64,000 bases of DNA from Jonesiaceae bacterium BS-20 (GTDB taxonomy: Bacteria; Actinomycetota; Actinomycetes; Actinomycetales; Cellulomonadaceae), in contig CP146203.1 in assembly GCA_039995105.1 (NCBI GenBank), positions 3,348,001 to 3,412,000 on the forward strand. The letters run 5' to 3'. A program made the translations under genes and the position numbers. This document shows, piece after piece, positions 42,004 to 64,000 of this stretch. The notes beneath the pieces were generated by a model. That model was not told the origin of the DNA and ran no database searches. It saw nothing but the letters and a program-made list of their open reading frames with translations. Numbering within the stretch: position 1 is the first letter of the stretch; each line of letters opens with the position of its first letter.

Positions 42004-42310
42004 TTTGCTGCTCCTAGGGTTGAAACCACTTCCGTTCTAACTCAACCCTGCTAATGGGAGTAGCGCAAGCGCGCCGGGCCGCCGGGGCCTGGTTCACCCT
42101 GCGGAAATTGTTCAGATGGTCGGTTTTGCGCAGGTAGCAAGGACAAAAGTAATGGGAAATTCAAATGTCCCGCTGCTCAGCCGTGGTGCCGCGTGAGAGT
42201 CTGTAGGGAATGGCGCTATTCTCAATGTCGATGCCGGAGTACCGCTGGTGTTACAAGGCCGGCTGGAACTACTGAGTGATACCTGAGAAACACTAAGGAG
42301 TGTGGGGGAC
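42004..42310. promoter_or_regulatory. Divergent intergenic region, holin-like gene to beta-helix lipoprotein
   Basis: About 305 bp. AGGGTTGA (42016-42023) and TCAACCCT (42042-42049) form an 8-bp inverted repeat within 50 bp of the holin-like start. AAGGAG at 42295-42300 is the ribosome-binding site of the next gene. A minus-strand open frame at 42112-42342 overlaps the lipoprotein start and is not supported. Confidence 0.4.
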
Positions 42311-43597
42311 GTGGCTGTCAAAAGGGGGTTGACGGCGACCATTGTGCTGCTTGCAATGGTCTTTTTGGGAGGTTGCGCTCAAGCACCATCCCAAAGTGAG
42401 CTTCATCTGGTCAGAGTGCCGCAGGACGCCACACTTGCTGAAGCAGGTTCACTCGTAGCCGATGGCGGCATTATTCTCATCGGCCCGGGGACCTACCAGG
42501 AAAGTCTCGAGGTCACGGGCGACGACATTACCGTGCGAGGACAGGACCGCAACGAGGTCATCTTGGACGGTGAATTGACTCGCAGCAACGGTGTGATCGC
42601 AACCGGTGCCCGGGTCACGGTTGAGAACCTCACCGTTCGTAATTTTTTGCAAAGCGGGGTCCTCATCACTGGGACCTCGGGGGTTGACGGGACAGGAATT
42701 GCCCGCGGCCCCGACGGGTATTTGCCTGAAAACACGCCCCCGCCGGTGCCCGGCTACCTAGTGCAAGCCGTGACGGCATCGAATAACGGGTTGTACGGCA
42801 TTTATTCGTTCAACCGCACTGGCGGGATCATCCGGGACAACATAGCTACGGGAGGGTCCGACTCCGGAATTTATGTGGGCCAATGTGTTGACTGCAACGC
42901 GGTAGTTACGGACAACATCTTGATGGACAACGCCGTTGGATTGGAATTTGCAAATGCTTCTTCGGTCGCCGTGCATGGAAACCGAATTGTGGACAACCGC
43001 GTAGGTATCTCAGTGTTGAGCAATTACCTTGAGGCGCACGGTCCCACCAAATCTGTCGTAATCGCCGGCAACCTCATTGCGGATAACAACGAGACTCAGA
43101 CACCGGTGCAGGCGGACGGAGGGTTTGGGATTGGAATTGGCCTAGGGGGAACCGTCGATGCCTTGGTGCGTGCTAACACCATCTCCAGCAATAGCGGGGT
43201 AGGTATTTGGATTACTTCTTCTGAAGACTTTTCCCCAGTTGGTAACCACGTTGTGGATAACAATTTTTCAGACAACGCACTTGATCTGGCGTATACGCCC
43301 ACAACGCCTCTGGGGCATCAGGGCAACTGTTTTGAGCTGTCCCCACACGCAACTACGCAACCGGACAACTTAGTACAAGCGGGGTGCCAAGATCCGCTTC
43401 CGGTAGGCACCTACGTGTCCCCACCAGCCCCCAATGGCATCATGTTTTCGCAGGTGCCGTTGCCAAATCCCAGGGCTGGTCTGGCCACTGTGGATGATCA
43501 GCCGCGTGTGCTACCGGACCGTATTGAATTGCCTGATCTAAGCACTGTTACCCCACCCGGTCGAGATTTACTCATCAAAGAGAGGCCAATCGGATGA
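42311..43597 (+). CDS. Lipoprotein with right-handed beta-helix (NosD/pectin-lyase-like)
   Basis: 428 residues from GTG 42311; GTG 42302 sits only 1 nt from AAGGAG, too close. The signal peptide ends in FLGGC. Beta-helix repeats occupy residues about 45-340 (NEVILDGELTRSNGVIATGA, RVTVENLTVRNFLQSGVLI, NGLYGIYSFNRTGGIIRDN, NAVGLEFANASSVAVHGNRI), like the CASH domains of NosD. The C-terminal 90 residues are Pro-rich. It may bind a carbohydrate or metal-protein partner outside the cell. Its stop overlaps the next start (ATGA). Confidence 0.82.
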   Translation: MAVKRGLTATIVLLAMVFLGGCAQAPSQSELHLVRVPQDATLAEAGSLVADGGIILIGPGTYQESLEVTGDDITVRGQDRNEVILDGELTRSNGVIATGARVTVENLTVRNFLQSGVLITGTSGVDGTGIARGPDGYLPENTPPPVPGYLVQAVTASNNGLYGIYSFNRTGGIIRDNIATGGSDSGIYVGQCVDCNAVVTDNILMDNAVGLEFANASSVAVHGNRIVDNRVGISVLSNYLEAHGPTKSVVIAGNLIADNNETQTPVQADGGFGIGIGLGGTVDALVRANTISSNSGVGIWITSSEDFSPVGNHVVDNNFSDNALDLAYTPTTPLGHQGNCFELSPHATTQPDNLVQAGCQDPLPVGTYVSPPAPNGIMFSQVPLPNPRAGLATVDDQPRVLPDRIELPDLSTVTPPGRDLLIKERPIG

Positions 43598-44268
43598 CAA
43601 AGTTGCCCAGAGTTGCGCACGGGTTGCTGGTGGCCGCAGTGCTGATGGGTTCGCTTGCTAGCTGCTCTTCCGAATTACCAGCGGTGGGAGAGAGCCTCAC
43701 CATAGAACAAGCAGAGACCCTTGCGCAGGCTCGGTTTCGGCTAGCCGCCCAGGGGCCCTTCACGGTAGAAGTCTCGGTGGGCGGTCAAGACGATGTCAAC
43801 CACCTAGAGGCAGAACTGACTGTGGACCACCAAAACCTTCAGGCGTGGGGCACGGTTGAGCGTGGCCCGCAGGGGTTAGCAATCACCGAGCAGGTTGTAC
43901 TGACGGACCAGATCTACGCGGTCAACGTTGATGGTGTCTGGCAAACCGGAGAACTGCCCACTGCGGCTCTGCTGGTGCCGTTTTCCATGGGAGCGGACCG
44001 CCCAGAGAACGCCCAAATCTTGGCCCAGTCAGACGCCCAGTTCCTTGGTAGCAGCAAACTCGATGAGCAAGAAGTTGCGGTATTCCGCAATGTAAGTGAG
44101 AGCGGACAGGACTCAACAACACGGCTGTGGGTAGATGAAGAGGGCCGCCTGCAACGCCTTGACTCAGGTGCTGATGAAACGTTCAGCGCAACCGTATTGG
44201 ATCAGAGTCCAACTCCCAAACCGGAAGATCTAGTGGCGTTCATTGACAGTTTAGGAACTCCTCGGTGA
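43594..44268 (+). CDS. LppX/LprAFG-like lipoprotein
   Basis: 224 residues. The lipobox is LASC after a short hydrophobic leader. The mature part alternates beta strands and resembles the lipid-binding LppX_LprAFG fold (LEAELTVDHQNLQAWGTVER, TEQVVLTDQIYAVNVDGVW, TRLWVDEEGRLQRLDSG), though weakly. It may carry a hydrophobic ligand for the DyP peroxidase or outer lipids. It is the middle gene of a fully overlapping operon. Confidence 0.76.
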   Translation: MTKLPRVAHGLLVAAVLMGSLASCSSELPAVGESLTIEQAETLAQARFRLAAQGPFTVEVSVGGQDDVNHLEAELTVDHQNLQAWGTVERGPQGLAITEQVVLTDQIYAVNVDGVWQTGELPTAALLVPFSMGADRPENAQILAQSDAQFLGSSKLDEQEVAVFRNVSESGQDSTTRLWVDEEGRLQRLDSGADETFSATVLDQSPTPKPEDLVAFIDSLGTPR

Positions 44269-45557
44269 TCAACAAGCGTCATCCCAATAACCTGCCAGCA
44301 CGAGGACCAGAGTCTGCTAGTACAATGGACCCTGCCGATCCGATAAGCTCAATTGCTCCAGGTCCAGCAGCAGTATCTCCACCGGGGTCACGCTCGGATA
44401 GTCAGGGGTTCTCGCGTCGACAGATTTTAACTATTGCTGGATCCGCGTTAGCAGCCGGTGCTGCCGGCTGGGCCGTACGCGGTCAAATTGCAGAACCGCA
44501 CACGGCGGGGGCCGCCTCCGGTGTCCAGGAGCCCGGACCTTCGCAAGAGCCAACCGGCGGACAGCCGATGGACCAGATTAGTGGGGCATCGGACGGGGAA
44601 AATGCGCTAGCAAAGCCGCTGCCAGAAACAGAACAGCGGCCGGGAATCACCTTTCCATCGGTGCCGCAACGGCACGCATGGTTTGGGGCACTCGCACTGC
44701 CGGGAATGAGCGCCGCAAACATCCTGGAACTTGCGCAAGCAGCGCAAAATAGCCCCGGCACCAATTTTCCAGATGCTGGAACCGTCACGGTCACGATCGG
44801 TTTTGGACCCGCAGTGGCCCACGAACTATGGCCGCAACGGGCGGCAAAGGCAGCGGAACTTCCGGCCTTCAAGCGGGAGACCGAGGACCTCGTGGCTGGC
44901 GGGGAAGTGGGACTGCAGATTTGTGCCGAGACTAAAATTGCCGTCCAGCACATGGTTGCTACTGTCTTGGCGGCTTTTGGTGACCCGTATGTCTTGTGGA
45001 GCCAACACGGATACCGGGATGCGCCAACAGCAAATGGCACAACCAGAACCTCAAGCGGTTTTGTCGATGGTGTTGCAAACCCTCGCACAGCAGAGCTGTT
45101 GGCTGCCGGGGTCTGGTCGAATCTGATGCACCGGGATGCCCATTTGGTGCTGCGCCGGATGCAAATTCTTCCGCAGTTTGCGCAACTGTCAACCACAAAC
45201 CAGGAACAGGCAATTGGGCGGCGTCAGGACACGGGAGCACCGCTGTCCGGAGGAGCCCCGCATGACAACGTGGACCTGTTTGCGAAGACTCCGGACGGTC
45301 ATCTTTTGACGCCGTCGAACAGCCATGTGCGCAGGGCGCATCCGGCAAATATGGGACTGCCACTCATGCTGCGTAGGAGCTATAGTTTCGATCCCGAAGT
45401 GGGCACTGGGCTGGTGTTTGTGGCGTTTGTGGGTGACCCACAAACCTTTGTCCAAACCCAACAGCGCATGGACCAAGCCGATGACCTGATTAAATATACG
45501 GTCACTGATTCCTCAGGCTGTTTCTTTGTCCCCGGCGACCTGATACCGGACAACTAG
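44265..45557 (+). CDS. Tat-exported Dyp-type heme peroxidase
   Basis: 430 residues from GTG; ATG 44325 is an alternative that shortens the leader. The twin-arginine motif SRRQILTIAGSAL begins at about residue 50, so the protein is exported folded. The DyP signature GFVDGVANPRT, with the catalytic Asp, lies mid-protein, and the proximal His is probably that in NSHVRRAHP. The family oxidises dyes, lignin-type phenolics or iron using H2O2. Here it is coupled to two lipoproteins, unlike EfeUOB iron operons. H2O2 from the oxidases elsewhere in the window could be its co-substrate, though that is speculative. Confidence 0.86.
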   Translation: MINKRHPNNLPARGPESASTMDPADPISSIAPGPAAVSPPGSRSDSQGFSRRQILTIAGSALAAGAAGWAVRGQIAEPHTAGAASGVQEPGPSQEPTGGQPMDQISGASDGENALAKPLPETEQRPGITFPSVPQRHAWFGALALPGMSAANILELAQAAQNSPGTNFPDAGTVTVTIGFGPAVAHELWPQRAAKAAELPAFKRETEDLVAGGEVGLQICAETKIAVQHMVATVLAAFGDPYVLWSQHGYRDAPTANGTTRTSSGFVDGVANPRTAELLAAGVWSNLMHRDAHLVLRRMQILPQFAQLSTTNQEQAIGRRQDTGAPLSGGAPHDNVDLFAKTPDGHLLTPSNSHVRRAHPANMGLPLMLRRSYSFDPEVGTGLVFVAFVGDPQTFVQTQQRMDQADDLIKYTVTDSSGCFFVPGDLIPDN

Positions 45558-45807: not shown

Positions 45808-48800
45808 ATGAAAAGGTTCTTAGCAACCGCCGCGGCATTTTCCATGCTTGGAGCCGTGGGCGTGGTTGGGGCACAAACTGCATATGCAGGCCCCGGGGAC
45901 GGAACAATCACCGTCCATGTAGTCGAAGATAAAGATGGTGACAAGGTCCGTACGAACGCGGACTCTAATCTACAAGGTGTCACCGTAACGCTTACGAATG
46001 CTGCTGGAGAAGAACACACCGGTGTGACCGGAACGAACGGGCAACTGCGAATGACCGCAGCCCAGAACCCGCTCACAGGCGGGGTGTACCGAGTAGAAGT
46101 TACTAATCCTGATCCTGATCGATTCACCGAGGCGCAGGTAGGAAGCAACTACGTAGATCCACAGCTTGCGCCAGCCGTTTCATTTATTGATGTGACCGCT
46201 GGTAAAGCTGCAAACATCTCGGTTGGGTTTGTCGATCTAGCCGGGCCGATTGATCTTAATCCAACGTTGTTCTCAGCCATCCACCCAGACAATATCTGGG
46301 CGGTAACCGAGGACGAACCAGAGATTTACAAGATCAGTGCGAATCTTCAGGAAAGTAAACCAACTCAGGTAACCGCACGTGGAACCGTGGGAACGGTTTA
46401 CGGCATGGGGGTAGACCCGGTTACCCGTGACCTCTTTGCCGGCGCGTTTGCTAAACGTGGTTCAGACTATGGCCCGGGCGGTCCCGGAGCTGTCTACCGG
46501 GTGAACCCAGACACTGGCGCTTCATCCGTGTATGTCACGGTTCCCGATGTGGGGACCACCGCTCACAACTTTGCGGATAAGCAGGACTTTGCCTTCCGCA
46601 CGGCTGTAGGCCGCGAGTCCTTGGGTGATGTGGATGTTAGCCCGGATGGCAAGTGGCTCAGTGTTATGAACCTGAAGACCGACTCAATCGTGGTCTATCC
46701 GGTTCAAAGTGCACCTAACCCTGCACCAATCCAAACCTTGGCGATCACACCGCAGGATTGCTCAACAGACTGGGCGCCATTTGCGATTGAGCAGTCAGGT
46801 GACACCGTTTACGTCGGTGCCACCTGCGGTGAAACTATTAAGGCGTACGTTCTGGAATACGAGCGTGCCGTGGATGGCACCCTGACGTTTATCGATGTGG
46901 TCATGGAAAGTGACCTCACCACAATTCCAGGGCGCAACTTGCAACAAGTGTTTTCTGGATCGCTCACCTGCTTCACTGCCAAGTGGAATGCCTGGAGCGA
47001 CGACATTCCGCAAGACTGTATAGACGGAGCGACCCCTTACCCTTTGGGCCCGCCAAATCCTAAGAGCTTCGACACCTTTGCTTGGCAGTTTGCCTTTGCT
47101 CAGCCACAACTCGCGGACATTGAGGTCATGAATGACGGAAAGCTAGCCGTGAGTTTCCGTGACCGTAGTGGCGATCAGTACAGTTCCATCTTGTATGTGG
47201 GTGAGCGTTCCACTGGCGGCGACGCATACCACACCAACATTCCTGCGGGAGACCTCCTATTTGCTTGCGGTGATGGGGCAAACGGATTTGTCTTGAATTG
47301 CGGTGCTACCACCGAGAATGTCAAAGAAGACGTGGTTTTATTCCACTTAGAAGCAGCATTTGGCGGCATCGCTTACATGCCCGCAACAGACCACATCATT
47401 ACGAACCAAATTGATCCCGATGGTACTGTGAACCGCATTGGTCTACGTGGGTACCAAAGCAACGGAGTCGTATACAACGATGCTTCCGATTGGGGAGACG
47501 GAGTTATTCTGACGTCCGGCTTCAAGAAGGCAGCCGGCCTAGCTGACATTGAAGTACTGCTTAAAGCTCTAACCCAACAGGTGGGTAACCGAGTTTGGAT
47601 TGATACCGACAAGGACGGAATCCAAGGCCCCGATGAGCCAGCGGTTCCAGGAGTTCAAGTATCTCTGTATAACGAGGAAGGGGTAGTCATTGCGACAACC
47701 GAAACCGATGCCAACGGCGAGTACTACTTTGATACGGATGACGGTCTAGCGCCGGAAACCAATTACGAGATTCGCTTGGACAGGCCAGCTGACTTTGAAG
47801 CAGGGGGACCGCTTGAGGGAATGTCGGTCACTCAGACGAGCGCTGCTGGTAGTGAGGCCATTGACAACAACGGAGTGCTTAGTTCCGGCGTGGTTGTAGC
47901 CGCCTTTACCAGTCCAGTTCAAGGTACCAATGATCACTCAATTGACTTTGGTTTCATTGAGACCACACTGGTTTCTGTTGGTGATTACGTTTGGATTGAT
48001 GCCAACGATAATGGTGTTCAGGATGCGGGTGAGGTTCCGGTTGCTGGTGTGACTGTGAACTTGTTGTCGGCTGATGGTGAGACTGTTGTTGCGACGACGA
48101 CTACTGATGCTGATGGTTATTACGTCTTTACTGATCTGCCGGTTGATACCGATTATGTTGTTGAGTTTCCAACGACGGTGACGGTTGATGGTGTTGAGTA
48201 TGTGTTGACTGAGCCGAACCGTGGTGGCGATGATGCAGCAGATTCTGATGCCGATGTTTCAACCGGTCGTGTTTCCATCACTACACCTTCTTCGGGTGAG
48301 AACTTGGATGGGCCGGGTGAGGCTGATGATCCAACGATTGATGCCGGTTACGTTCCAGTTCCACCGGTGCTGGTTTCTGTTGGTGATTACGTTTGGATTG
48401 ATGCCAACGATGATGGTGTTCAGGATGCTGGTGAGGTTCCGGTTGCTGGTGTGACTGTGAACTTGTTGTCGGCTGATGGTGAGACTGTTGTTGCGACAAC
48501 GACTACTGACGCCGATGGTTATTACGTCTTTACTGATCTGCCGGTTGATACCGATTATGTTGTTGAGTTTCCAACGACGGTGACGGTTGATGGGGATGAG
48601 TATGTGTTGACCGGACCGAACCGTGGTGGCGATGATGCAGCAGATTCTAATGCCGATGTTTCAACCGGTCGTGTTTCCATCACTACACCTTCTTCGGGTG
48701 AGAACTTGGATGGACCGGGTGAGGCTGATGATCCAACGATCGACGCTGGTTATGTTCCCGTAGTGGTCCCTCCAGTTCTAGTGTCGATTGGTGACCTGGT

Positions 48801-51726
48801 TTGGATCGATGAAGATGGTAATGGGATCCAAGACGAGGGTGAGCCGGGTGTTCCTGGGGTAACCGTGATTTTGGAAACTCCTGATGGTCAGGAAGTTGCT
48901 ACAACGGAAACAGATGAGGACGGGTTCTATGTGTTCCCTGACCTGGATCCGGAAACCGAGTATGTAGTGAAGTTCCCGCCTACGGTGACCGTGGATGGCG
49001 TTGAGTATGAGCTGACGCCACCGAGCCAAGGTGACGACGTTGCTAAGGACTCTAACCCAGACCCAGAAACAGGCAAAACTCCTGTGGTTACGACGCCTTC
49101 TTCGGGTGAGAACTCCGATGGGCCGGGTGAGGCTGATGATCCAACGATTGATGCCGGTTACGTTCCAGTTCCACCGGTGCTGGTTTCTGTTGGTGATTAC
49201 GTTTGGATTGATGCCAACGATGATGGTGTTCAGGATGCTGGTGAGGTTCCGGTTGCTGGTGTGACTGTGAACTTGTTGTCGGCTGATGGTGAGACTGTTG
49301 TTGCGACAACGACTACTGACGCCGATGGTTACTACGTTTTCACTGATCTGCCGGTTGATACCGATTATGTTGTTGAGTTTCCAACGACGGTGACGGTTGA
49401 TGGGGATGAGTACGTGCTGACCGGACCGAACCGTGGTGGCAACGATTCGAATGACTCGGATGCGGATGTTGCTACTGGACAGGTTGCTGTCATGACCCCA
49501 ACCGGTCATCGCGATGGAACTCCGGGCAACTCTGGTCTACCGGGACAAGCAGATGACCCAACCATCGACGCAGGTTACGTTCCAGTTCCAGTTCCACCGG
49601 TTCTAGTGTCGATTGGTGACTACGTTTGGATTGATGCCAACGATAACGGTATTCAGGACGAAGGTGAGGCTCCGGTTGCTGACGTAACTGTCAGACTGTT
49701 GGACGCGGATGGTCAGACCATCCGTACAACAACCACCGATCCGAACGGCTTCTATTCGTTCACGGATCTTGATCTAGATACCGACTACGTGGTGGTCTTC
49801 CCGCCAAGTGTCTCGGTAGAAGGACAAGAGTACCTACTCACGCAACCTGGTCAGGGTGGAAATAGTGCGAACGACTCCAACCCAAACACCATCTCTGGGC
49901 AAGCCCCGGTAACTACACCTACCTCCGGTAACAACTCGGGTGCGCCCGGTGAAACTGATGATCCAACGATCGACGCAGGTTACGTTCCAGTTCCGGCTCC
50001 ACCGGTGCTGGTTTCTGTTGGTGATTACGTTTGGATTGATGCCAACGACAACGGTATTCAGGATGAAGGTGAGGCTCCGGTCGCTGGTGCAACGGTGACG
50101 TTGTATGCGGCAGACGGTGAAACCGTCATCGCCGTTACTCAAACCGACGCTGATGGTTATTACGCCTTCACAGATCTTCCTGTGGAGACAGAGTTCATCA
50201 TTGAATTCCCCGTCACGGTTACTGTTGAAGGCAAGGTCTACCCACTAACCGAGCCAAACCGTGGTGGAGATGACGCTGGGGATTCGGATGCCAATGTTTC
50301 AACCGGTCGTGTATCTATCACCACGCCTTCATCCGGTAACAACTCGGGTGCGCCTGGTGAGGCTGATGATCCAACGATCGACGCCGGTTATGTTCCGGTG
50401 TTGGTGTCGATTGGTGACTTGGTTTGGATTGATGAAGATGGTAATGGGATCCAAGACGAGGGTGAGCCGGGTGTTCCTGGGGTAACCGTGATTTTGGAAA
50501 CTCCTGATGGTCAGGAAGTTGCTACAACGGAAACGGATGAGGACGGGTTTTATGTGTTCCCTGACCTGGATCCGGAAACCGAGTATGTAGTGAAGTTCCC
50601 GCCTACGGTGACCGTGGACGACGTTGAGTATGAGCTGACGCCACCGAGCCAAGGTGACGACAGAACTAAGGACTCTAACCCAGACCCGGATACCGGGAAG
50701 ACTCCGCTGATCACCACACCATCGGAGGGTAACAACAGCACCGAACCTGGTACGGCTGATCTCCCAACGATTGATGCCGGTTACAAGCCAGTCCCTGTGC
50801 CAGAGCCAGTAGTGGTTTCTATCGGTGACTACGTTTGGGTGGATAAGGACGGCGACGGTAAGCAAGATCCGAACGAACCAGGCATTCCTGGGGTAACCGT
50901 AAAACTTCTTACGCCTGAGGGTAAGGAAATTAAGCGTACGGTTACGGATAAGGATGGGTTCTACTCATTCACGGATCTGACTCCAGGTACGGACTTCATT
51001 ATTGAGTTCCCAACTACAGTGATGATCCAAGACGTTGAGTACGTACTCACTACGCCTGATCAGGGCAATGATGATGGTAAGGATTCGGATGCCGACACCA
51101 AGACGGGCCGAGTCTCAGTAACCACGCCTGAGGATGGCCTCAACTTGAGTGAGCCTGGCAAGACTGACAATCCAACGTTTGATGCTGGATTCGTTCCGGT
51201 TGAGGAAGCGCCTACACTCGTTTCGGTAGGTGACTTCGTCTGGGTGGATAAGGACGGCGATGGCAAGCAAAATCCGAATGAACCAGGCATTCCTGGCGTA
51301 ACGGTCCGTCTCCTCAGTCCTGAAGGTAAGGAAATCAAGACCGCGGTCACGGATAAGGATGGGTTCTACTCATTCACGGATCTGACACCAGATACCGAGT
51401 ACATTATCGAGTTCCCAACGACAGTGACCGTAGATGGTAAACAGCACAAGCTGACCGTTTCAGGAAAGGGCGGTAACCCTGCCCTCGATTCCGATGCTGA
51501 TTCCAAGTCTGGCCGCGTCTTGATCAAGACGCCAAAGACCGGAACAAACTCCGGAGCGCCAGGGGAAGCTGATGACCCAACCATCGATGCCGGCTTTGTG
51601 ATTGTTTCTTCCGGGGACCTGCCAACTACCGGTGGAGAGTCACCGTGGCCGGTCCTGATCGGTGCGATGCTCATTGTTGGAGCTGGTGCGCTATTGATGA
51701 GGGCGCGGAGCCGCAAAACGCTATGA
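45808..51726 (+). CDS. Giant sortase-anchored SdrD B-repeat surface protein
   Basis: 1972 residues with a signal peptide ending near GAQTAYA. A short Cna-B-like module (about 32-130) precedes a beta-propeller-like region (about 140-585; NIWAVTEDEPEIYKISANLQ, GDVDVSPDGKWLSVMNL). Ten SdrD B-like modules of about 135 residues follow, starting near residues 591, 722, 856, 992, 1126, 1267, 1402, 1533, 1670 and 1805; most begin VSVGDYVWID and contain the calcium-loop text ANDNGVQDAGE and end DDPTIDAGYVPV. The sorting signal LPTTG lies at 1938-1942, then a helix and RSRKTL. Likely a long-stalk adhesin with calcium-stiffened repeats; partner unknown. Confidence 0.9.
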   Translation: MKRFLATAAAFSMLGAVGVVGAQTAYAGPGDGTITVHVVEDKDGDKVRTNADSNLQGVTVTLTNAAGEEHTGVTGTNGQLRMTAAQNPLTGGVYRVEVTNPDPDRFTEAQVGSNYVDPQLAPAVSFIDVTAGKAANISVGFVDLAGPIDLNPTLFSAIHPDNIWAVTEDEPEIYKISANLQESKPTQVTARGTVGTVYGMGVDPVTRDLFAGAFAKRGSDYGPGGPGAVYRVNPDTGASSVYVTVPDVGTTAHNFADKQDFAFRTAVGRESLGDVDVSPDGKWLSVMNLKTDSIVVYPVQSAPNPAPIQTLAITPQDCSTDWAPFAIEQSGDTVYVGATCGETIKAYVLEYERAVDGTLTFIDVVMESDLTTIPGRNLQQVFSGSLTCFTAKWNAWSDDIPQDCIDGATPYPLGPPNPKSFDTFAWQFAFAQPQLADIEVMNDGKLAVSFRDRSGDQYSSILYVGERSTGGDAYHTNIPAGDLLFACGDGANGFVLNCGATTENVKEDVVLFHLEAAFGGIAYMPATDHIITNQIDPDGTVNRIGLRGYQSNGVVYNDASDWGDGVILTSGFKKAAGLADIEVLLKALTQQVGNRVWIDTDKDGIQGPDEPAVPGVQVSLYNEEGVVIATTETDANGEYYFDTDDGLAPETNYEIRLDRPADFEAGGPLEGMSVTQTSAAGSEAIDNNGVLSSGVVVAAFTSPVQGTNDHSIDFGFIETTLVSVGDYVWIDANDNGVQDAGEVPVAGVTVNLLSADGETVVATTTTDADGYYVFTDLPVDTDYVVEFPTTVTVDGVEYVLTEPNRGGDDAADSDADVSTGRVSITTPSSGENLDGPGEADDPTIDAGYVPVPPVLVSVGDYVWIDANDDGVQDAGEVPVAGVTVNLLSADGETVVATTTTDADGYYVFTDLPVDTDYVVEFPTTVTVDGDEYVLTGPNRGGDDAADSNADVSTGRVSITTPSSGENLDGPGEADDPTIDAGYVPVVVPPVLVSIGDLVWIDEDGNGIQDEGEPGVPGVTVILETPDGQEVATTETDEDGFYVFPDLDPETEYVVKFPPTVTVDGVEYELTPPSQGDDVAKDSNPDPETGKTPVVTTPSSGENSDGPGEADDPTIDAGYVPVPPVLVSVGDYVWIDANDDGVQDAGEVPVAGVTVNLLSADGETVVATTTTDADGYYVFTDLPVDTDYVVEFPTTVTVDGDEYVLTGPNRGGNDSNDSDADVATGQVAVMTPTGHRDGTPGNSGLPGQADDPTIDAGYVPVPVPPVLVSIGDYVWIDANDNGIQDEGEAPVADVTVRLLDADGQTIRTTTTDPNGFYSFTDLDLDTDYVVVFPPSVSVEGQEYLLTQPGQGGNSANDSNPNTISGQAPVTTPTSGNNSGAPGETDDPTIDAGYVPVPAPPVLVSVGDYVWIDANDNGIQDEGEAPVAGATVTLYAADGETVIAVTQTDADGYYAFTDLPVETEFIIEFPVTVTVEGKVYPLTEPNRGGDDAGDSDANVSTGRVSITTPSSGNNSGAPGEADDPTIDAGYVPVLVSIGDLVWIDEDGNGIQDEGEPGVPGVTVILETPDGQEVATTETDEDGFYVFPDLDPETEYVVKFPPTVTVDDVEYELTPPSQGDDRTKDSNPDPDTGKTPLITTPSEGNNSTEPGTADLPTIDAGYKPVPVPEPVVVSIGDYVWVDKDGDGKQDPNEPGIPGVTVKLLTPEGKEIKRTVTDKDGFYSFTDLTPGTDFIIEFPTTVMIQDVEYVLTTPDQGNDDGKDSDADTKTGRVSVTTPEDGLNLSEPGKTDNPTFDAGFVPVEEAPTLVSVGDFVWVDKDGDGKQNPNEPGIPGVTVRLLSPEGKEIKTAVTDKDGFYSFTDLTPDTEYIIEFPTTVTVDGKQHKLTVSGKGGNPALDSDADSKSGRVLIKTPKTGTNSGAPGEADDPTIDAGFVIVSSGDLPTTGGESPWPVLIGAMLIVGAGALLMRARSRKTL
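47581..51590 (+). repeat. Array of ten SdrD B-repeat units
   Basis: Units of about 390-420 bp. Copies starting at 47971, 48373 and 49183 share long stretches of identity; those at 48373 and 49183 match for about 140 bases from GTTTCTGTTGGTGATTACG. Copies at 48781 and 50404 form a second near-identical type (ATTGGTGAC(C/T)TGGTTTGGAT). The order type A, A, B, A, C, D, B, then two related terminal copies is a mosaic, not simple tandem doubling. The A-type copies also use unusually T-ending codons compared with the N-terminal region. Confidence 0.88.
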
Positions 51727-54112: not shown

Positions 54113-55585
54113 ATGCGTGAGAAGGGCTTACCCTCACTAACATTGGCGCTAACGCCAATCATCGCAATGTTCGTATTCATGGGCGTGGGTGCAATCTGGA
54201 TTGGATTGCCCGCCGAGCCCATGCTGATCTTGTCTGCGATCATCGCCGGTGTTATTGCCAAGTTCCTGGGCTATAACTACACGCAGATGATCACGATGAT
54301 CTCTGAAAAGATTGCCAAGGTCATGCCAGCGCTGCTCATCTTGGTGACCGTAGGATTCTTGATCGGTGCCTGGATGGTCGGTGGCACCATCCCGATGCTT
54401 ATCTACTACGGGTTAGAAATTGTTTCTCCCGCGTACATCTACATCACCGCGCTCGTTGTGACCTCGATCGTTGCGGTATGTACCGGAACTTCATGGGGAT
54501 CCGCCGGAACCATCGGTGTTGCGTTCATGGGTGTGGCCCTCGGAATGGAAGGCGTCAACCTCGCAATCGTGGCCGGTGCCATTCTGTGTGGTGCCTACTT
54601 TGGTGACAAGTTCTCCCCACTCTCCGACTCGACAAACCTGGCCGCAGCAGTAACCCGGGTTGACCTGTTTGTGCACATCCGCCACCTGCTTTACACCACG
54701 GTTCCATCTTGGATTGTGGCCGCGATCGTCATGATCATCGCTGGCTTCACCGTTGATACCGCTGGCGGCTCCGGCTCCGAGAAGGTCGCCGCGATTAACG
54801 GCACCCTCGAAAGTGCATTTAGTTGGAACCTCTTCCTGCTGCTGCCCGTAGTAATCATCCTCTACGGCTCCATGCGCAAACTACCAACCATCCCCGTGAT
54901 GCTGGTGTCATCCGCAATTGCCATGATCAATGCTCTGGTCTTCCAGGGCTTCTCCCTGATCGACACCTTCAACTCGATCGTTTCTGGGTTTAGCACCGAC
55001 ATGTTCGGTGAGGGCTTTGACCTGGGTGCCGCCGGGGACGACATCATGAAGCTGCTCAACCGCGGTGGTATGTCATCGATGATGAACACCCTGCTCATCG
55101 CGTTCTGTGCCCTCGCGTTCGCCGGAATCTTGTCGGTGACCCGCTCACTCGACAAGATCGTTGACTCCCTGCTCAACGTAGTTAACAGCACCGGGTCACT
55201 CATCCTGGCGACCATCGCAACCGCGATGCTCACCATTGCAACCACCTGCAACGGACAGGTCTCCGTTCTCATGCCGGGTGAGCTTCTGCGGCCCGCATAC
55301 ATCCGCCGCGGATTGCACCCTAAGAACCTGGGACGCACCGTTGAGGACGCCGGAACCATGATTGAGCCACTGCTGCCGTGGACTGCAGCTGGTGCCTACA
55401 TGGCCGGAACCTTGGGAGTGGCGACCATTGAATACGTACCATGGGCGACCTTTCTATGGACCGGAATTATCTTTGCGGCGATCTGGGGATACACCGGCTT
55501 TGGCATTGCCAAGCTGACCCCGCAAGAACAAGAGCAGATGATCAAGGAACTTGATGAAGAGGCCGCAGCGGCAGCTAACGTCTGA
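54113..55585 (+). CDS. nhaC: NhaC-family Na+/H+ antiporter or amino-acid/sodium exchanger
   Basis: 490 residues. Around 11 hydrophobic helices with the NhaC-family motifs TGTSWGSAGTIGVAFMGVAL and CGAYFGDKFSPLSDSTNLAA, and ATCNGQVSVLMPGEL. Ion-binding Asp and Asn residues of the family lie in the DKFSPLSDS loop. Some family members exchange organic acids or amino acids rather than Na+ alone (MleN-type malate/lactate exchange is known). The gap to the lyase is 132 bp, so it may have its own promoter; a U-tract terminator follows. Confidence 0.88.
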   Translation: MREKGLPSLTLALTPIIAMFVFMGVGAIWIGLPAEPMLILSAIIAGVIAKFLGYNYTQMITMISEKIAKVMPALLILVTVGFLIGAWMVGGTIPMLIYYGLEIVSPAYIYITALVVTSIVAVCTGTSWGSAGTIGVAFMGVALGMEGVNLAIVAGAILCGAYFGDKFSPLSDSTNLAAAVTRVDLFVHIRHLLYTTVPSWIVAAIVMIIAGFTVDTAGGSGSEKVAAINGTLESAFSWNLFLLLPVVIILYGSMRKLPTIPVMLVSSAIAMINALVFQGFSLIDTFNSIVSGFSTDMFGEGFDLGAAGDDIMKLLNRGGMSSMMNTLLIAFCALAFAGILSVTRSLDKIVDSLLNVVNSTGSLILATIATAMLTIATTCNGQVSVLMPGELLRPAYIRRGLHPKNLGRTVEDAGTMIEPLLPWTAAGAYMAGTLGVATIEYVPWATFLWTGIIFAAIWGYTGFGIAKLTPQEQEQMIKELDEEAAAAANV

Positions 55586-55703: not shown

Positions 55704-56626
55704 GTGCTGCAGGTGCCGGGTGACTGGCGACGCTTAGGGCACACGGGCAGGGTCTAGGCAAACAGCTTTGGTGCGTGGATGAGGTGTTTATTTTCGACTC
55801 TCAAGGCCCTGTGAACGTGCGGTTTGCTACATCAAATTTAAGTAGGCTATTTGTGCGTTGCTTCATTTCATGAGGGCGTTTTTGATTCGGTGGAGCCGGG
55901 GGTGGGAGGATATTTGGCCTGACCGACAGTAGCTGGCCTTGCAAAATTGTCTACCTCCGGATCCACGGATACGGAATAACTCAGTTAGGGTTGTATGCCC
56001 ACCCGGGACGATCCAAGGGGTGGGTATGCTGCTCGTGCCAACTAATAAAGTTGACCTCAAGCAACCCCAGGAGCAGGGAGACATCCTTGGATTGAAGTAG
56101 CTTTCTCGGGTTCGGGGCCAATAAGTGGCGTCTCAACTGCTCTGTTACGTGGCTTCGAGGTCCAGTGGTTGAGATTTTGGGAGCGAAAGCCGCTCTCGAT
56201 TTATTAGGGAAAGCCGCTCGGAAGTAGGTAATGCAAAGTCCGCGGTCCGCAGGGTCACGGACTTTGTTATGCCCTTAACGACCGCAGCAAATCACCCTTA
56301 GTGGGCAAACGTGGCGCAGAAGAGTTGCTCTTCAAGGACAAAACTTTGTCGATCAGCGTTCAAAGTCAATGAATGAACAAATTAATTCGCCGGTCTTCGT
56401 TGGGTCAACTATCAACTTTTGCATTGACATCAACATAAGTCCTTCCTACTATTAAAAATCACAGGCGACTTCAATTTGACATTAATTAAAGTTCGCCTGG
56501 GGTTTTCGAGGACGAGAACTCAAATCACTCCGGAGAAGTTCTGAATGTAGCGATGACGCTGCGCACGTATGAGGGGTCAATCGCGGTATTCGAAACTCCG
56601 CGCTCCGGAAACATCAAGGAGGAACT
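55704..56626. other. Long gene-free region upstream of the 2270-residue protein
   Basis: About 920 bp with no supported gene. Open frames on either strand (for example minus 55863-56084) lack ribosome-binding sites; the plus-strand text near 55990-56096 (GVGMLLVPTNKVDLKQPQEQ) is somewhat protein-like and may be a decayed gene end. A hairpin AAAGTCCG (56235-56242) with CGGACTTT (56258-56265) is present. The last 250 bp (around 56360-56500) is AT-rich and is likely the promoter of the next gene; AAGGAGG at 56616-56622 is its ribosome-binding site. Confidence 0.5.
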
Positions 56627-59600
56627 GTGGTTCGAAAGACAGGGGTCAGCCAATGGCTGGGCCGAGGTGCGGCCGCAATACTTGCAGCCGCGCTCGTAGT
56701 GCCGTTATCGATGGTTGGCGCTCAAGCCAACCCAGTGGTCACGGAAACTACGACTAACGAAACAGAGCCCGCTCTCAACTGGGCCAACTACGACAGAGTC
56801 AAGATCACCGGTGAGACCGGTGAACCAATCGGGATGGCGATTCTCCCGGATGAGCGTGTTATTCACACCGCACGCGATGGTGTATTCCGTTTGACGGATC
56901 CAAGTACCGGGGTAACCAAGCAGATTGGTCAATTAGACGTCTACCGGAACTCGGAAGACGGACTCCAAGCCGTTGCAATTGACCCAGACTTTAAAACCAA
57001 CAACTGGGTTTACGCGGTATATGCGCCAACCAACATGAGCGGTACTTCTCCTGAGGGCCGGAACTACCCACAGACTACTCCAAGTGGGTCAGCCCCAAAG
57101 ACACTGCCTGACGGCGAAGATGAAAGTTATTGGGACACTTGGCTTGGGTATAACGTGCTCTCAAGGTTTAAGTTCGATCCCGCTACGAGCACGCTGGACC
57201 TAGCCTCAGAGCAGGAGATTCTCAAAGTTTCCGCCCAACGTGGTCAATGCTGCCACGTGGGAGCGGATATCGATTTTGATATCGACGGAAATCTCTTTGT
57301 TTCTACCGGGGACAATACTGCGGCCGATACACCGGGATCTAACGGTTACGCGCCAAATAACAATACTCCGGGCATGAGCCCGGGACTGGATGCTCGCCGT
57401 GGCGCTGGAAGTACCAATGACCTGCGCGGAGCGATCTTGCGGATCAAGGTTAAGGACACTATCCCAGCGGGAACTGAGCCCGGGGCAGGAGCCACCTATG
57501 ATATTCCGGCAGGGAACCTCTTTGACTCACTTAATGACCCGGTAGCTTACCCTGCTGACAAGGTCCGTGATGAAATTTACGTTATGGGAGTGCGTAACCC
57601 CTTCCGTATGTCATATGACCCGGTTGCCAAAGCGCTATCCTGGGCAGACTATGGTCCGGATGCCTCAGGCCCAAGTGCGGAGCGCGGCCCCATGGGATTC
57701 GTTGAATGGCAGCTAACGGATAAGCCAATTGCGGCCGGATGGCCTTACTGCCACGGACCCAATGACGGCGGAGCTTACAACGAGTGGGACTTTGCCACCG
57801 GAACCGCGGGTGAGTTCTTTGATTGTGCTGCTCCGGTCAACAATTCCACTTGGAACACCGGAGTGAAAAACCTACCACCCACAACCCAACCACAAATTTG
57901 GTATGGTGACCGCCCCGGTGACCAGCCTGAAGAGTTTGATGGGTTGGTTAATTTTTCCCCAACGGGTGGACAGGGCCCCATGGGAGGGCCAACCTACCGC
58001 TTTGATGCCGACAATGACTCGGTAACCAAATTCCCGAAGTTCTGGGATGGCAAGGCGTTCATGGGCGAATTCTCGCAGGACTACATTGCCGCTTTTGAGC
58101 TCGATGAGCTAACAACTGACGGTAAGGTCACCAAGATCCACAACTTCCTGCCAAACAGTGCCCTGTATGACCAGGGGGCGCCAGACTGGTCAGGAATCAT
58201 TGATATGGAGTTTGGTCCTAACGGAAGCCTCTACGTGCTGGAATACGGAAAGGGCTTCTTCCGGCAAAACCCGGAGGCTGGCCTGTACCGCATTGACTAC
58301 TCAGAAACCGGTGTCAAGACTCCGCGTGCAGAGATTTCAACCGATGTTATTGCCGGGCGTACCGCGCCACTTGAGGTCAACTTTGACGCCTCAGGCTCCA
58401 AAAATCAGGGTCGCACCGACATTACTTACACCTGGGACTTTGACAACGACGGCGACATTGACGCAACCGGTGTGGAGGCAACTTATACTTACACCGAAAC
58501 AGGTCAATACAACGCGGTGCTGTATGCCACCGACGCTGATGGGCGTGTGGGACGTGCCGTACAAGAAATTACCGTAGGTAATACCGCGCCTGAACTAACT
58601 ATCAATATCGCAGATGGATCTGTGTTCCAGTGGGGTGACCCGGTTGACTTCAAGGTGACGGTCAAGGACGCTGAAGACGGCGACGTGCCAGACTGTTCCC
58701 GCATGAACTGGACCTTTGGGTTGGGCCATGACGAGCACGCGCACCCACTTGTGACCGGCAAAAGCTGTGAATTCACCATCACCACTCCGGAAGATGCAGT
58801 GAACCACGGTGAGGGGTCCAAGATCTTTGGCACCCTTGTGGTGCAGTACACCGACCTGCCACAGGGAGATGTCCCTTCAGTGACGGGTGAAGCAGTGCTT
58901 ACACTCAAGCCAGAAGTTCAAGAAGCTGAGTGGTTGGATGCCGGAACCCGCATTACCGAGGTTCTGGATGAAACCGCAAGCGCTGGCCGGTACGTGGGCG
59001 ACTTCGACGCCGGAGACTATCTGGAGTTCGGTCCGATTGCTCTGACCCACGCTCCAACGGGAGAAACCATTGATCGCGTGGATGTTCGCGCACGCGGCAA
59101 CGGAACTGTAAGCCTGAAGTGGAAGGAAACGGATGCGGTCTTTGCTACGGCGAAGTTTGACTCTGAATCCGAATGGCAAACGGTTAGCGCCGACATTGCC
59201 AACACACCGCAGGGTAGCGGAAGCATTGTGATCACCTCAAGCGGGCCCGTTGACCTGGACTCGTTTGAATACATTGCTAGCTCACAGCTCCCTATGGTTT
59301 GCGATGAAAACGCCAAGATCTCCGCTAATGATGAGTTCTCCGGCGACCAACTAAACACCTGCCGCTGGAATGTTGTGAACCCAAACCCAGCTCTGGGTAC
59401 GGTTGCTGATGGTTCTTTCCAGATCACCACCACAAACGCGGACATCAATGGAGCGGTAAATGACACCGTGCCTAACATTTTGCAGTCCAAAATTGTTACT
59501 GGGAAGAACTGGACCGTTGAAACGAAGTTCAACACCAAGTTCACTAGCCAGTGGCACCAGGGTGGAATCATGGTCTATGCGGATGCAGATAACTATGTGA

Positions 59601-62600
59601 AGATTGATCCACTCTTTGCTGGTACTGAACCCAATGCTGCAAAACCACTACGTTTGGAGATCCGTTCTGAGGTAAATGGGCAGCTTAAGCAGCCCTCTCA
59701 GGCAGATATTTCTGACCTTGCACTCTCAGCTACTGGAGACTACTGGGTGCGCCTGACTCGTTCCGGTGATACGTTTACCGGTGCGATTTCATTTGACGGC
59801 AAACAGTGGACGCAAATCCCCGGATCTGTAACAAATGCGAACCTAGGTGACGCTGGACCCGGTCTGTTTGCACTAGGTAAGAGCCAGAGCGCACCAGCCG
59901 TAGTGAAGTTTGATCACTTCCGTGTAGTGAACCCTGATCCAACAGCGCTGGTAGACATCCCTGCTGAAAATGTGGGAGTGCAGATGTACTCCCTCAACCC
60001 ATGGGTTGACACTGAAGGGCTGGACAAGGTACTCAAGTCACTGTCAGAAATCGGGTTCAAGAACATTGAACCGTTTGGTGGTAACTTCGATGGGCTTACT
60101 GCTGAAGAGTTCCGCGCCATGACTGACGGTTATGGTTTGCATGTTCCTTCGTCGCACTACAACGTGGGTGAAGCGGACTTTGATAAGACGCTTGCATACG
60201 TGAAGACGTTGGGCCAAGAGTTTGTTGGTTCGGGTGGCTTTGCTGCGCCGGGTGTTGGAACGTATGAAAAGACGTTGGAAACAGCCAAAACGATGAACCG
60301 TCTTGGACAAAGGTCTGTTGACGCAGGTGTGGGCAAGTTCTTTGGCCACAACCACGATTCGGAGCTGAAGACGGTTTACAACCACAATGGCAAGGACATG
60401 ATGGCGTGGGAGATTCTCATTGCTGAAACCGACCCTGACCTGGTGACGTTCGAACTTGACGTAGCTTGGGCTGCACACGCTAACGCGGACAGTGTTGAAC
60501 TACTTGAAAAGTACGGTGACCGCATCTCGATGCTGCACATCAAGGATGGTACAAACCTTGGTGGTGCAGGACGTCCAACCTTTACCAACCTTGGTAAGGG
60601 CGAAAACGACCTCCAGCCAATCTTGGCAGCAGCCAAGGAGCTGGGCGTCAAGTACTTCATCATGGAATACGACAACGCAGCCGACGGCCTGAGCTTTGTA
60701 ACCGAAGGCTACGAGTACCTGACGGGCCTCAAGGCTGGCACGGTATCCGGTAACGAACCTACACAGGTTGTTGCCAAAGCACCTGCCTTTACGGACCAGC
60801 CAGGTTCCAAGGATGACAAGTACACCATCCCAACTGTTGAGGGCGTTGAATACCTCATCAAGGATGTGGTGGTTGCTCCGGGTGAATACCTCGGTTGGGG
60901 TGCGGTAACCATTACCGCACGCGCAATCGAAGGCTACGCACTGACCGAACACACGGACACGAACTGGACGCACACGTTCGATCGTGCCGGTGAAAACCCA
61001 GCCGACCGGGCTAAGGTGCCCGCGGACCGTGTCGGTGTGCAAATGTACTCGCTTGGCCCATGGGTCAATGCCGATGGTCTTGAAAACGTCATTGCGGCTC
61101 TGGCCGACATTGGTATCAAGAACATTGAGCCATACGGCGGTAACTTCAGCGGACGTACTGCTGAAGAGTTCCGCGCCATGACCGATGCTGTTGGTCTGCA
61201 TATTCCTTCGTCGCACTACAACGTAGGTGAAGCCGACTTTGATGAGACGCTTGCGTACGTCAAGACGCTGGGCCAGGAGTTTGTTGGTTCTGGCGGGTTT
61301 GCCGCACCGGGTGTTGGCACCTACGAAAAGACGTTGGAAACGGCTAAGACGATGAACCGTCTTGGACAAAGGTCCGTTGACGCAGGTGTGGGCAAGTTCT
61401 TTGGCCACAACCACGACTCAGAGCTCAAGACCGTATACAACCACAATGGTAAGGACATGATGGCGTGGGAGATCCTCATCGCTGAAACCGACCCTGACCT
61501 GGTGACGTTCGAGCTCGACGTAGCCTGGGCCGCACACGCCAACGCGGACAGCGTTGCGTTGCTCGAGAAGTACGGTGACCGCATCTCGATGCTGCACATC
61601 AAGGACGCCACCAACCTGGGTAACCAGGACTGGCCTACCTTCACCAACCTTGGTAAGGGTGAGAACAACCTGCAGCCAATCCTGGCTAAGGGACTCGAAA
61701 TCGGCATCGACTACTTCCTCATGGAGTACGACATGGCGGCTGACGGCCAGAGCTTTGTAACCGAAGGGTATGAATACCTGACGGGCCTCAAGGCAGGCGA
61801 CGTTACCGGGCCAAAGGAACCGACCGAGGTGACCGCGCAAGCGCCAACCTTTGTTGACAAGCCAGGCACCAAGGATGACAAGTTCACCATCCCAGCAGTT
61901 GAGGGTGTTGAATACCTCGTCAAGGATGCGGTTATCGCTGCCGGTGAGCACGCGGGTGCGGGTGTTGTTACCATCACCGCTCAAGCAGTGAAGGGATACG
62001 TTCTTGCTGATGACACAGTCTCGTCATGGACGCACACCTTTACTCGTACGGGTACCGCTCCAACGGACCAAGTCAAGGTTCCAGCCGAACGCGTAGGTGT
62101 TCAAATGTTCTCCCTTGGCCCATGGGTTAGGGCTGAAGGTCTTGACAGTGTTCTGTCGGCGCTGTCTGACATTGGTATCAAGAACATTGAACCGTTTGGT
62201 GGTAACTTCAGTGGACTTACTGCTGAAGAGTTCCGCGCCATGACTGACGGTTATGGTTTGCATGTTCCTTCGTCGCACTACAACGTGGGTGAAGCGGACT
62301 TTGATAAGACGCTTGCATACGTGAAGACGTTGGGCCAAGAGTTTGTTGGTTCGGGTGGCTTTGCTGCGCCGGGTGTCAAGACCTATGAAGACACCTTGGC
62401 TACCGCTGAGACGATGAACCGTCTTGGACAAAGGTCTGTTGACGCGGGTGTGGGCAAGTTCTTTGGCCACAACCACGACTCAGAGCTCAAGACCGTTTAC
62501 AACCACAATGGCAAGGACATGATGGCGTGGGAGATCCTCATCGCTGAAACTGATCCTGACCTGGTGACGTTCGAACTCGACGTAGCCTGGGCTGCACACG

Positions 62601-63439
62601 CTAACGCGGATGTAGTTGAGCTACTTGAGAAGTACGGTGACCGGATTTCGATGCTGCACATCAAGGATGGAACAAACCTTGGTGGCGAAGGACGTCCAAC
62701 CTTTACCAACCTTGGTAAGGGCGAAAACGAACTGCAAGCCATTCTGGCAGCGGCAATGAAACTCGACATTGAGTACTTCCTTATGGAGTACGACAACGCA
62801 GCGGACGGCCTGAGCTTCGTTACCGAAGGCTTTGAGTACCTGACCGGTCTAGACGCCGGTGTTCCGGGTGCACCAGCCGAGCCGGTAGTGGTTACCGCCG
62901 AGGCGGTTACCTTCTCCGATGTATCTGGAACCGACAAGGATACGTTCACCGTTCCTGAGGTTGACGGTGTTCAGTACTTGGTAGACGGCGCCGCAATTGC
63001 AGCCGGTGAGCACGCAGGTACGGGTCTTGTTACCGTCACTGCACAGGCAAAACAGGGCTATGTTCTGGCTGAAGGCTCTGTTTCCTCTTGGTCACACACG
63101 TTTGTAACCACTGTCGATCCGGTTGACCCTGTCGATCCGGTTGACCCTGTCGATCCGGTTGACCCTGTCGATCCGGTTGACCCTGTCGATCCGGTTGACC
63201 CTGTCGATCCGGTTGACCCTGTCGATCCGGTTGACCCTGTCGATCCGAAGGATCCAACCGATCCGAAGGACCCGAAGGACCCAACCAAGAAGCCAACCGA
63301 TGGTAAGACCGATGGTGGCAAGAAGGATGGATCGCTGGCCAAGACGGGCTCGAATGCAGGAGTTATCTCAGGCTTCGCAGCACTGTTCTTACTCATGGGA
63401 GTGGGGGTTACTTGGCGGGCAAAGCGTCGCGTGCGGTAA
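56627..63439 (+). CDS. Giant wall-anchored multi-domain sugar-oxidoreductase/isomerase-like protein
   Basis: 2270 residues from GTG, signal peptide ending near SMVGAQA. Residues about 50-560 resemble a glucose/sorbosone-dehydrogenase-type propeller ([54 protein letters not shown]). A PKD domain (about 574-651; [16 protein letters not shown]), a CBM6-like module (to about 888), and a concanavalin-like DUF1349 module (about 888-1103) follow. Three xylose-isomerase-like (AP_endonuc_2) TIM barrels lie at about 1108-1371, 1462-1725 and 1817-2078, each with [29 protein letters not shown] and MEYD, the acidic and His residues expected for metal binding. Ig-like linkers separate them; a VDP repeat, LAKTG (2237-2241) and a basic tail end the protein. 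Catalytic order and substrate are unknown. Confidence 0.85.
59950..62860 (+). repeat. Three homologous TIM-barrel repeats within the giant gene
   Basis: Three units of about 790 bp start near 59950, 61010 and 62075, each followed by an Ig-like linker of about 250 bp. A stretch of roughly 160 bases in copies 1 and 3 (about 60094-60255 and 62215-62376) is identical including third positions, while copy 2 has several synonymous differences there. Near ACGATGAACCGTCTTGGACA all three copies match closely, showing mosaic homogenisation. Confidence 0.85.
63113..63247 (+). repeat. 18-bp tandem repeat encoding a VDP wall-spanning stalk
   Basis: Seven exact tandem copies of GTCGATCCGGTTGACCCT (63113-63238) and a partial eighth (GTCGATCCG). 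It encodes VDPVDP repeatedly, ahead of a KDPTDPKDP region and the sorting signal, a typical Pro-rich segment crossing the peptidoglycan. Exact copies make it prone to length change. Confidence 0.95.
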
Positions 63440-63594: not shown

Positions 63595-63635
63595 AAAAGC
63601 TGGCCTACTCAAAATAGCGTAGGCCAGCTTTTTAG
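63595..63635. terminator. Bidirectional terminator before the SDR gene
   Basis: AAAAGCTGGCCTAC (63595-63608) and GTAGGCCAGCTTTT (63619-63632) are perfect complements with a 10-nt loop, flanked by A and T runs. It serves the plus-strand giant gene and the convergent minus-strand dehydrogenase. Confidence 0.88.
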
Positions 63636-63702: not shown

Positions 63703-64000
63703 TTAGAGCGCACCCGATGCCTTAACAACCTGCCCATTTACCCAGCCAGCATCTTCAGGGGGCTAAGAAGGAGACCAGACCGCCCGTGCGATATCCTGGG
63801 GGGTCCCAACGACTCCCTGCCGCGACATTGCAGCGATCAGTTGCCGTGTTTGTAGCGGAGTATCCACTATTACGGAAGCAACAACGTTGACCCGTATTCC
63901 GGCATCGAGAAGTTGCCCAGCCCCGGCCGCAACCAACATGTTCACGGCGGCCTTTGACATGGAATACGGCACCGAGGTAGCAATGGGGGAGCGCGCACCG
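63703..64000 (-). pseudogene. Short-chain dehydrogenase, C-terminal part, disrupted; truncated by the window edge
   Basis: Minus-strand frame open from the right edge: the SDR active site reads SVPYSMSKAAVNML (Tyr and Lys of YxxxK), then GIRVNVVASVIVDTPLQTRQ and GVVGTPQDIARAVW. An in-frame TAG at 63763-63765 comes early. Beyond it the same frame reads PPEDAGWVNGQVVKASGAL and stops at TAA (63703-63705), exactly the expected SDR C-terminus. Shifting frame over about 20 bases gives LLLSP, so a +1 and a +2 insertion that cancel are the likely lesion. The protein would lose the last 20 residues, which line the cofactor pocket in this family. A sequencing error is possible. Confidence 0.75.

Follow-up and report, generated by a model that had tools for sequence, protein, structure and literature searches.

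The window, i.e. the whole 64-kb stretch of DNA analyzed here from Jonesiaceae bacterium BS-20, contains a complete gene for a predicted wall-anchored fusion protein of 2270 amino acids (56627–63439, + strand). It is a single open frame over exactly the interval given in the original prediction, with a GTG start at 56627 and the stop at 63439. A ribosome-binding site, AAGGAGG, precedes the start codon (56616–56622, +). Further upstream there is a weak sigma-70-like promoter match, TTGACA-17-TACTAT (56424–56452, +), one such match being found where shuffling gives 0.7. A hairpin followed by a run of T (63595–63634, +) is a likely terminator, with a loop too long for the terminator scan. The gene stands isolated. 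The closest upstream gene, encoding a Na+/H+ antiporter, stops at 55585, about 1 kb away, and no pathway neighbours were found around the gene in the 64-kb window. On the 3' side of the hairpin lies only the remnant of a short-chain dehydrogenase on the opposite strand (63756–64000, −), which is apparently broken, its sequence being spread over short overlapping frames. Elsewhere in the window, a 1972-aa protein with eleven SdrD_B-type domains, likely a giant adhesin, is encoded at 45808–51726 (+), and its gene includes a 402-bp tandem repeat (47968–49440). Three other genes at 42302–45557 (+) encode a NosD/beta-helix protein, a 224-aa protein and a Dyp-type peroxidase.

Architecture and anchoring of the protein

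All features of the protein are given on the + strand. It begins with a Sec-type signal peptide (aa 1–35, 56627–56731), probably cleaved after AQA, followed by a GSDH-type propeller (aa 49–560, 56771–58306; PF07995, 4.7e-20), a PKD domain (58313–58582; PKD_4, 1.4e-10) and an Ig-like region, termed Ig2, that accompanies the propeller in relatives (58580–58921). Next come a CBM6-like domain (58922–59278; CBM_6, 9e-5, under the gathering score) and a DUF1349/concanavalin-like domain (59324–59932; DUF1349, 2.2e-11; GH43_C2, 3.1e-6). In the Pfam search, the concanavalin-like domain matched these two families, and the protein gave no match to the 3-keto-disaccharide hydrolase family PF06439. AP_endonuc_2 (PF01261) matches three stretches at 2.9e-33. 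These are three barrels of the putative 3-keto-glycoside lyase type (59960–60724, 61019–61783 and 62081–62845), the first with the motifs HNH, ExD, HxKD and ExD and the other two of the same type. Each of them is trailed by a spacer repeat of about 77 residues (60755–60985, 61817–62047 and 62879–63109). The C-terminal sorting signal (63335–63436) is preceded by a DPV-type linker that would span the wall and is encoded by a perfect 18-bp tandem repeat (63111–63247). In the sorting signal, residues 2237–2270 consist of LAKTG, a hydrophobic stretch and the basic tail RAKRRVR.

The genome of the organism encodes two sortases (PF04203). The protein thus has the signal peptide, the LPxTG-like motif with its membrane stretch and the basic tail of a sortase-anchored surface protein, as well as a sortase in the genome, and it is very probably extracellular and bound to the wall. 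The original prediction of an exported protein with a LAKTG anchor stands, and Pfam agrees with the domains that it named, namely a GSDH-like propeller, PKD, CBM6-like and concanavalin-like domains and three AP_endonuc_2 barrels, CBM_6 being below threshold. The Ig-like region, the spacer repeats and the 18-bp repeat were not part of that prediction. The CBM6-like and concanavalin-like domains suggest that the substrate is a glycan or a glycoside.

The three barrels are 84–88% identical in protein and 84–87% in DNA sequence. Between pairs, dS is 0.49–0.83 and dN 0.07–0.10 (dN/dS 0.12–0.14), and dN falls to 0 in the segments containing the HNH and ELD motifs. The low dN/dS ratio and the high identity indicate duplicates that are still coding, with all copies under constraint. 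In a phylogenetic tree, they cluster together (SH-aLRT 100%), separate from the two barrels of another protein of the same genome (locus L052, see below), so the triplication, or its homogenization, took place in the window's own lineage. A triple barrel was seen only in this protein among the sampled genomes, a partial sampling.

The propeller and its relatives

A profile built from 30 propeller relatives matches sGDH (1c9u/5min) across residues 13–433, almost the entire length. The same profile also matches hedgehog-interacting protein, a non-enzymatic member of this fold. The original prediction proposed to look for PQQ-binding residues in the propeller, and the answer is divided. Gln76, Lys377, Arg406 and Arg408 of sGDH, which there clamp the PQQ carboxylates, are replaced in the window propeller by a gap, Ser, Gly and Ile, and these positions are not conserved across the family. 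In contrast, His144, Arg228, Asn229, Gly247 and Pro248 of sGDH are kept in 93 of 93 propellers; in sGDH, His144 is the catalytic base, Arg228 and Asn229 activate PQQ, and Gly247-Pro248 belong to the calcium loop (PMC6881810). The His144-type base, the Arg-Asn pair and the Gly-Pro of the calcium loop are features that the window propeller has in common with sGDH, YliI and fungal AA12 of the same propeller family. The window propeller and its relatives differ from these enzymes in having invariant residues of their own and in being mostly tied to 3-keto-sugar enzymes. With the catalytic core kept and the clamp lost, the propeller looks catalytic and PQQ is doubtful as its cofactor; because of this loss we do not file it as a PQQ-dependent sGDH. 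A search of 21 genomes for pqqC gave no match; since none of the positive controls matched either, this result is uninformative. An AlphaFold model of the propeller from two sequences was of low confidence (pLDDT 43).

Within the window's taxonomic family, fusion to one or two barrels is found in 20 propeller proteins of the window's subgroup, and another 14 adjoin a separate barrel gene. The separate barrels have signal peptides at their N-termini, either Tat-like (NRRNFLRLAGG, SRRSLMKALGAS, KRRGFLRALAAS) or Sec-like. This class of barrel enzyme thus appears to be exported even where it is unfused. We also sampled 40 stretches from outside the family but within the same class (Actinomycetia), picked by propeller similarity alone. 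Here, 42 of 49 propellers have an exported barrel, a ThuA domain or a 3-keto-disaccharide hydrolase (PF06439) in the same chain or next to it, and in the window propeller's own CBM6 subgroup 16 of 17 adjoin a barrel. As a rough yardstick rather than a formal null, fewer than 10 PF01261 genes in 3.5 Mb would put chance adjacency below about 1 in 100. Among the PF06439 proteins are BT2157, a 3-ketotrehalose hydrolase, and a proposed hydrolase of 3'-ketolactose (PMC9007349). The propeller family is thus physically tied to two unrelated enzyme families with characterized members that act on 3-keto glycosides, and we therefore propose it by association as the 3-oxidase. Such co-fusion shows a common pathway and says nothing on the order of the steps. 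Known sGDH oxidizes C1, not C3 (PMC6881810). On balance, we slightly favour the view that the 3-keto substrate is made by the propeller acting as an oxidase.

Similar architectures were searched for in the rest of the order, as the original prediction had suggested, and they exist with one barrel, while the triple barrel is unmatched in the sampled genomes. In another family of the order, a protein with an LPTTG anchor (L195) has the order GSDH-PKD-Ig2-CBM6-DUF1349-barrel, i.e. the window architecture with a single barrel. The same order is found without a clear anchor in L192, and L196 likewise has the window's domain order with one barrel. We have accordingly dropped the idea that the architecture is unique. 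A 1930-aa protein from another family of the order (L198:13611–19400, +) even combines ThuA-GSDH-PKD-CBM6-DUF1349-barrel-3keto-disac_hyd-LPNTG in one chain and adjoins genes for a GFO and a cytosolic barrel. L194 encodes PA14-DUF7133-CBM35-3keto-disac_hyd-repeat-barrel with an LPTTG anchor. By its domain make-up, the window protein is one member of a large family of predicted surface proteins. A scan of genome contigs with peptide patterns of the single window protein matched only Marinactinospora, because such patterns are too specific. A further propeller branch has no obvious cleaving domain: in L090, L091, L092, L160 and L162, propeller proteins carry two or three DUF1349 domains without a barrel or a hydrolase in the chain.

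The propeller could alternatively be a binding or scaffold domain beside barrels that act as surface 3-keto-glycoside lyases, the 3-keto sugars being made by other enzymes such as pyranose oxidoreductases of fungi or plants or a different dehydrogenase from bacteria. The lost PQQ clamp and the profile match to hedgehog-interacting protein would fit this explanation, as would a second LAKTG protein of the same genome that has two lyase-type barrels and no propeller (L052:5868–8261, −), a homolog of which is carried by L193. Residues that are invariant in 93 of 93 propellers and correspond to the His, Arg, Asn and calcium-loop Gly-Pro of sGDH are, however, unexpected for a scaffold. Moreover, the modules showed no further oxidoreductase that is exported; the GFO of L085 lacks a signal peptide. 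We consider a non-catalytic propeller rather unlikely.

The barrels and their closest enzymes

With barrel 1 as query, the best sequence matches in the PDB are 8tcd (7e-20), 8tcs (9e-20) and AtOGE, 8bvk (6e-17), compared with 0.083 for IolE. An AlphaFold model computed from the three barrels plus one distant relative (pLDDT 82) gave the same neighbourhood. Its top matches, with Z between 24.6 and 28.5, are 3obe, 3l23, AL1 (8tcr/8tcd), BT1 (8tct) and AtOGE, and they include two uncharacterized Parabacteroides proteins. There is a gap below this group, and the remaining superfamily members have Z of 22.8 or less. By sequence and by model, the TIM barrels are thus nearest to AL1, BT1 and AtOGE, which bears out the predicted relationship with enzymes acting on 3-keto glycosides. 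AL1 from Alistipes (8TCD/8TCR) and BT1 from B. thetaiotaomicron (8TCT) share the fold over 239 residues (Z 26.9–27.6, 26–30% identity), and AL1 has the motifs HNH, ELD and LHIKD in common with the window barrels. Both were solved as single-barrel chains, whereas the window has three barrels and a propeller in one exported, wall-anchored chain.

AtOGE, the O-glycoside beta-eliminase of Agrobacterium tumefaciens (8BVK), binds Mn2+ through His132, Asp163, His189 and, weakly, Glu233, with His134 as catalytic base (PMC10628242). All five residues are identical in barrels 1–3 and in 113 of 113 exported barrels, as are E39 and H66. The metal-site residues that had been looked for in each barrel are therefore present in all three. 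In cytosolic barrel relatives from the same loci, Glu replaces the first metal ligand, His132. Sequence matches, model and conserved active site together give our proposal its firmest support, and the barrels are probably 3-keto-glycoside lyases, which may in addition hydrate the glycal. AtOGE itself is a single-domain enzyme encoded in an operon with the flavin dehydrogenase GlycDH, while the sole oxidoreductase candidate in the present protein is the GSDH propeller.

The C-glycoside lyases of the DgpB/C type, to which the barrels had also been compared, share the barrel superfamily and a related chemistry. They are not the closest relatives, and this analogy did not hold: Z is about 20.5 with 14% identity, against Z 24.6–27.6 and 26–30% for AtOGE, AL1 and BT1. 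DgpB/C is a two-subunit enzyme with Tyr39 supplied by the beta subunit and with Glu as first metal ligand, as reported for CGEs (PMC10628242), whereas all three barrels have His at this position.

The original prediction had left open whether oxidation is followed by isomerization or by cleavage. Sugar isomerases, epimerases and inosose dehydratases also belong to PF01261, and the barrels could in principle be such enzymes, with free sugars or inosose as substrates at the cell surface; the iolE model (TIGR04379) indeed matches with an E-value of 1e-30. The score of the whole protein is only 107.2 bits, against a curated cut-off of 290 bits, and in the comparison with the barrel model the structures of IolE rank well under the lyases and those of isomerases several Z units lower. 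At the first metal position the barrels carry the His of AtOGE and not the Glu of the cytosolic relatives, and the fusion partners are enzymes of 3-keto sugars. We thus regard isomerization as improbable and retain oxidation followed by cleavage as the best reading. That the protein is mainly a wall-anchored carbohydrate-binding adhesin whose enzyme-like domains have lost catalysis, as its repeats, CBM-like domains and anchor might suggest, is highly improbable given the active-site residues, which are intact in each copy and throughout the 113 exported barrels, and given the dN of zero in the HNH and ELD segments.

A possible surface route for glycoside cleavage

We propose, with a probability of about one half, that the protein is a sortase-anchored enzyme for the non-hydrolytic cleavage of glycosides outside the cell by 3-oxidation and subsequent beta-elimination. 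In the mechanism that we infer, including the lyase activity itself, the C3 regiochemistry, the propeller as oxidase with its cofactor or electron acceptor, and the nature of the substrate, the carbohydrate-binding domains would keep the substrate at the wall and the propeller would turn a sugar hydroxyl, most likely that at C3, into a ketone. In a barrel, two His, one Asp and one Glu would coordinate a divalent metal to which the 3-keto group binds, and the second His of HNH would abstract the C2 proton. The aglycone or the next sugar would then be expelled, leaving a 2-hydroxy-3-keto-glycal that may be hydrated by the barrel or by a partner. The product could be recovered by an ABC importer, a cytosolic Gfo/Idh/MocA dehydrogenase and a second barrel enzyme.

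Candidates for this recovery are encoded elsewhere in the same genome, in an operon for an ABC sugar importer, a Gfo/Idh/MocA (GFO) dehydrogenase and a cytosolic barrel (L181:1582–7585, +). The importer binding protein, the GFO and the cytosolic barrel are orthologous to products of genes adjoining surface modules in relatives, with about 59–81% identity for the latter two, and in the cytosolic barrel Glu takes the place of the first metal His of the exported barrels. A third LAKTG protein of this genome (L179:6820–10422, −) consists of PA14, DUF7133, CBM35 and 3keto-disac_hyd (PF06439). The genome thus has the predicted parts for cleavage outside, import, and reduction inside the cell, though scattered.

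The chemistry and every domain family are already known. In the levoglucosan pathway LgdA-LgdB1-LgdB2-LgdC, a Gfo/Idh/MocA dehydrogenase works with PF01261 eliminases (PMC10066097). These are separate enzymes encoded in one operon with an ABC transporter; a propeller, a wall anchor or a fusion is not described there. In the literature searched, which covered few subscription journals, we found no description of wall-anchored fusions of these domains and nothing relevant on a link between the propeller, ThuA and 3-keto sugars. More tentatively, the propeller could be an undescribed extracellular glycoside 3-dehydrogenase, and the fusion could perform the whole oxidation-elimination cleavage of glycans at the wall of a Gram-positive bacterium, as one of a widespread group of giant surface enzymes with ThuA, propeller, lyase barrels and 3-keto-disaccharide hydrolase joined in varied orders. 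Since the presumed oxidase and lyase are joined in one polypeptide, this reading is directly testable.

So far, the 3-keto glycoside route has been known from single enzymes, for example in gut Bacteroidota and in Agrobacterium. Here, several families of Actinomycetia have enzymes of the 3-keto lyase type fused into multi-domain chains that are predicted to be secreted or anchored to the wall. If our proposal is true, these bacteria would have an added surface route for the degradation of glycans and glycosides, and a candidate extracellular 3-oxidase would be named for Gram-positive bacteria.
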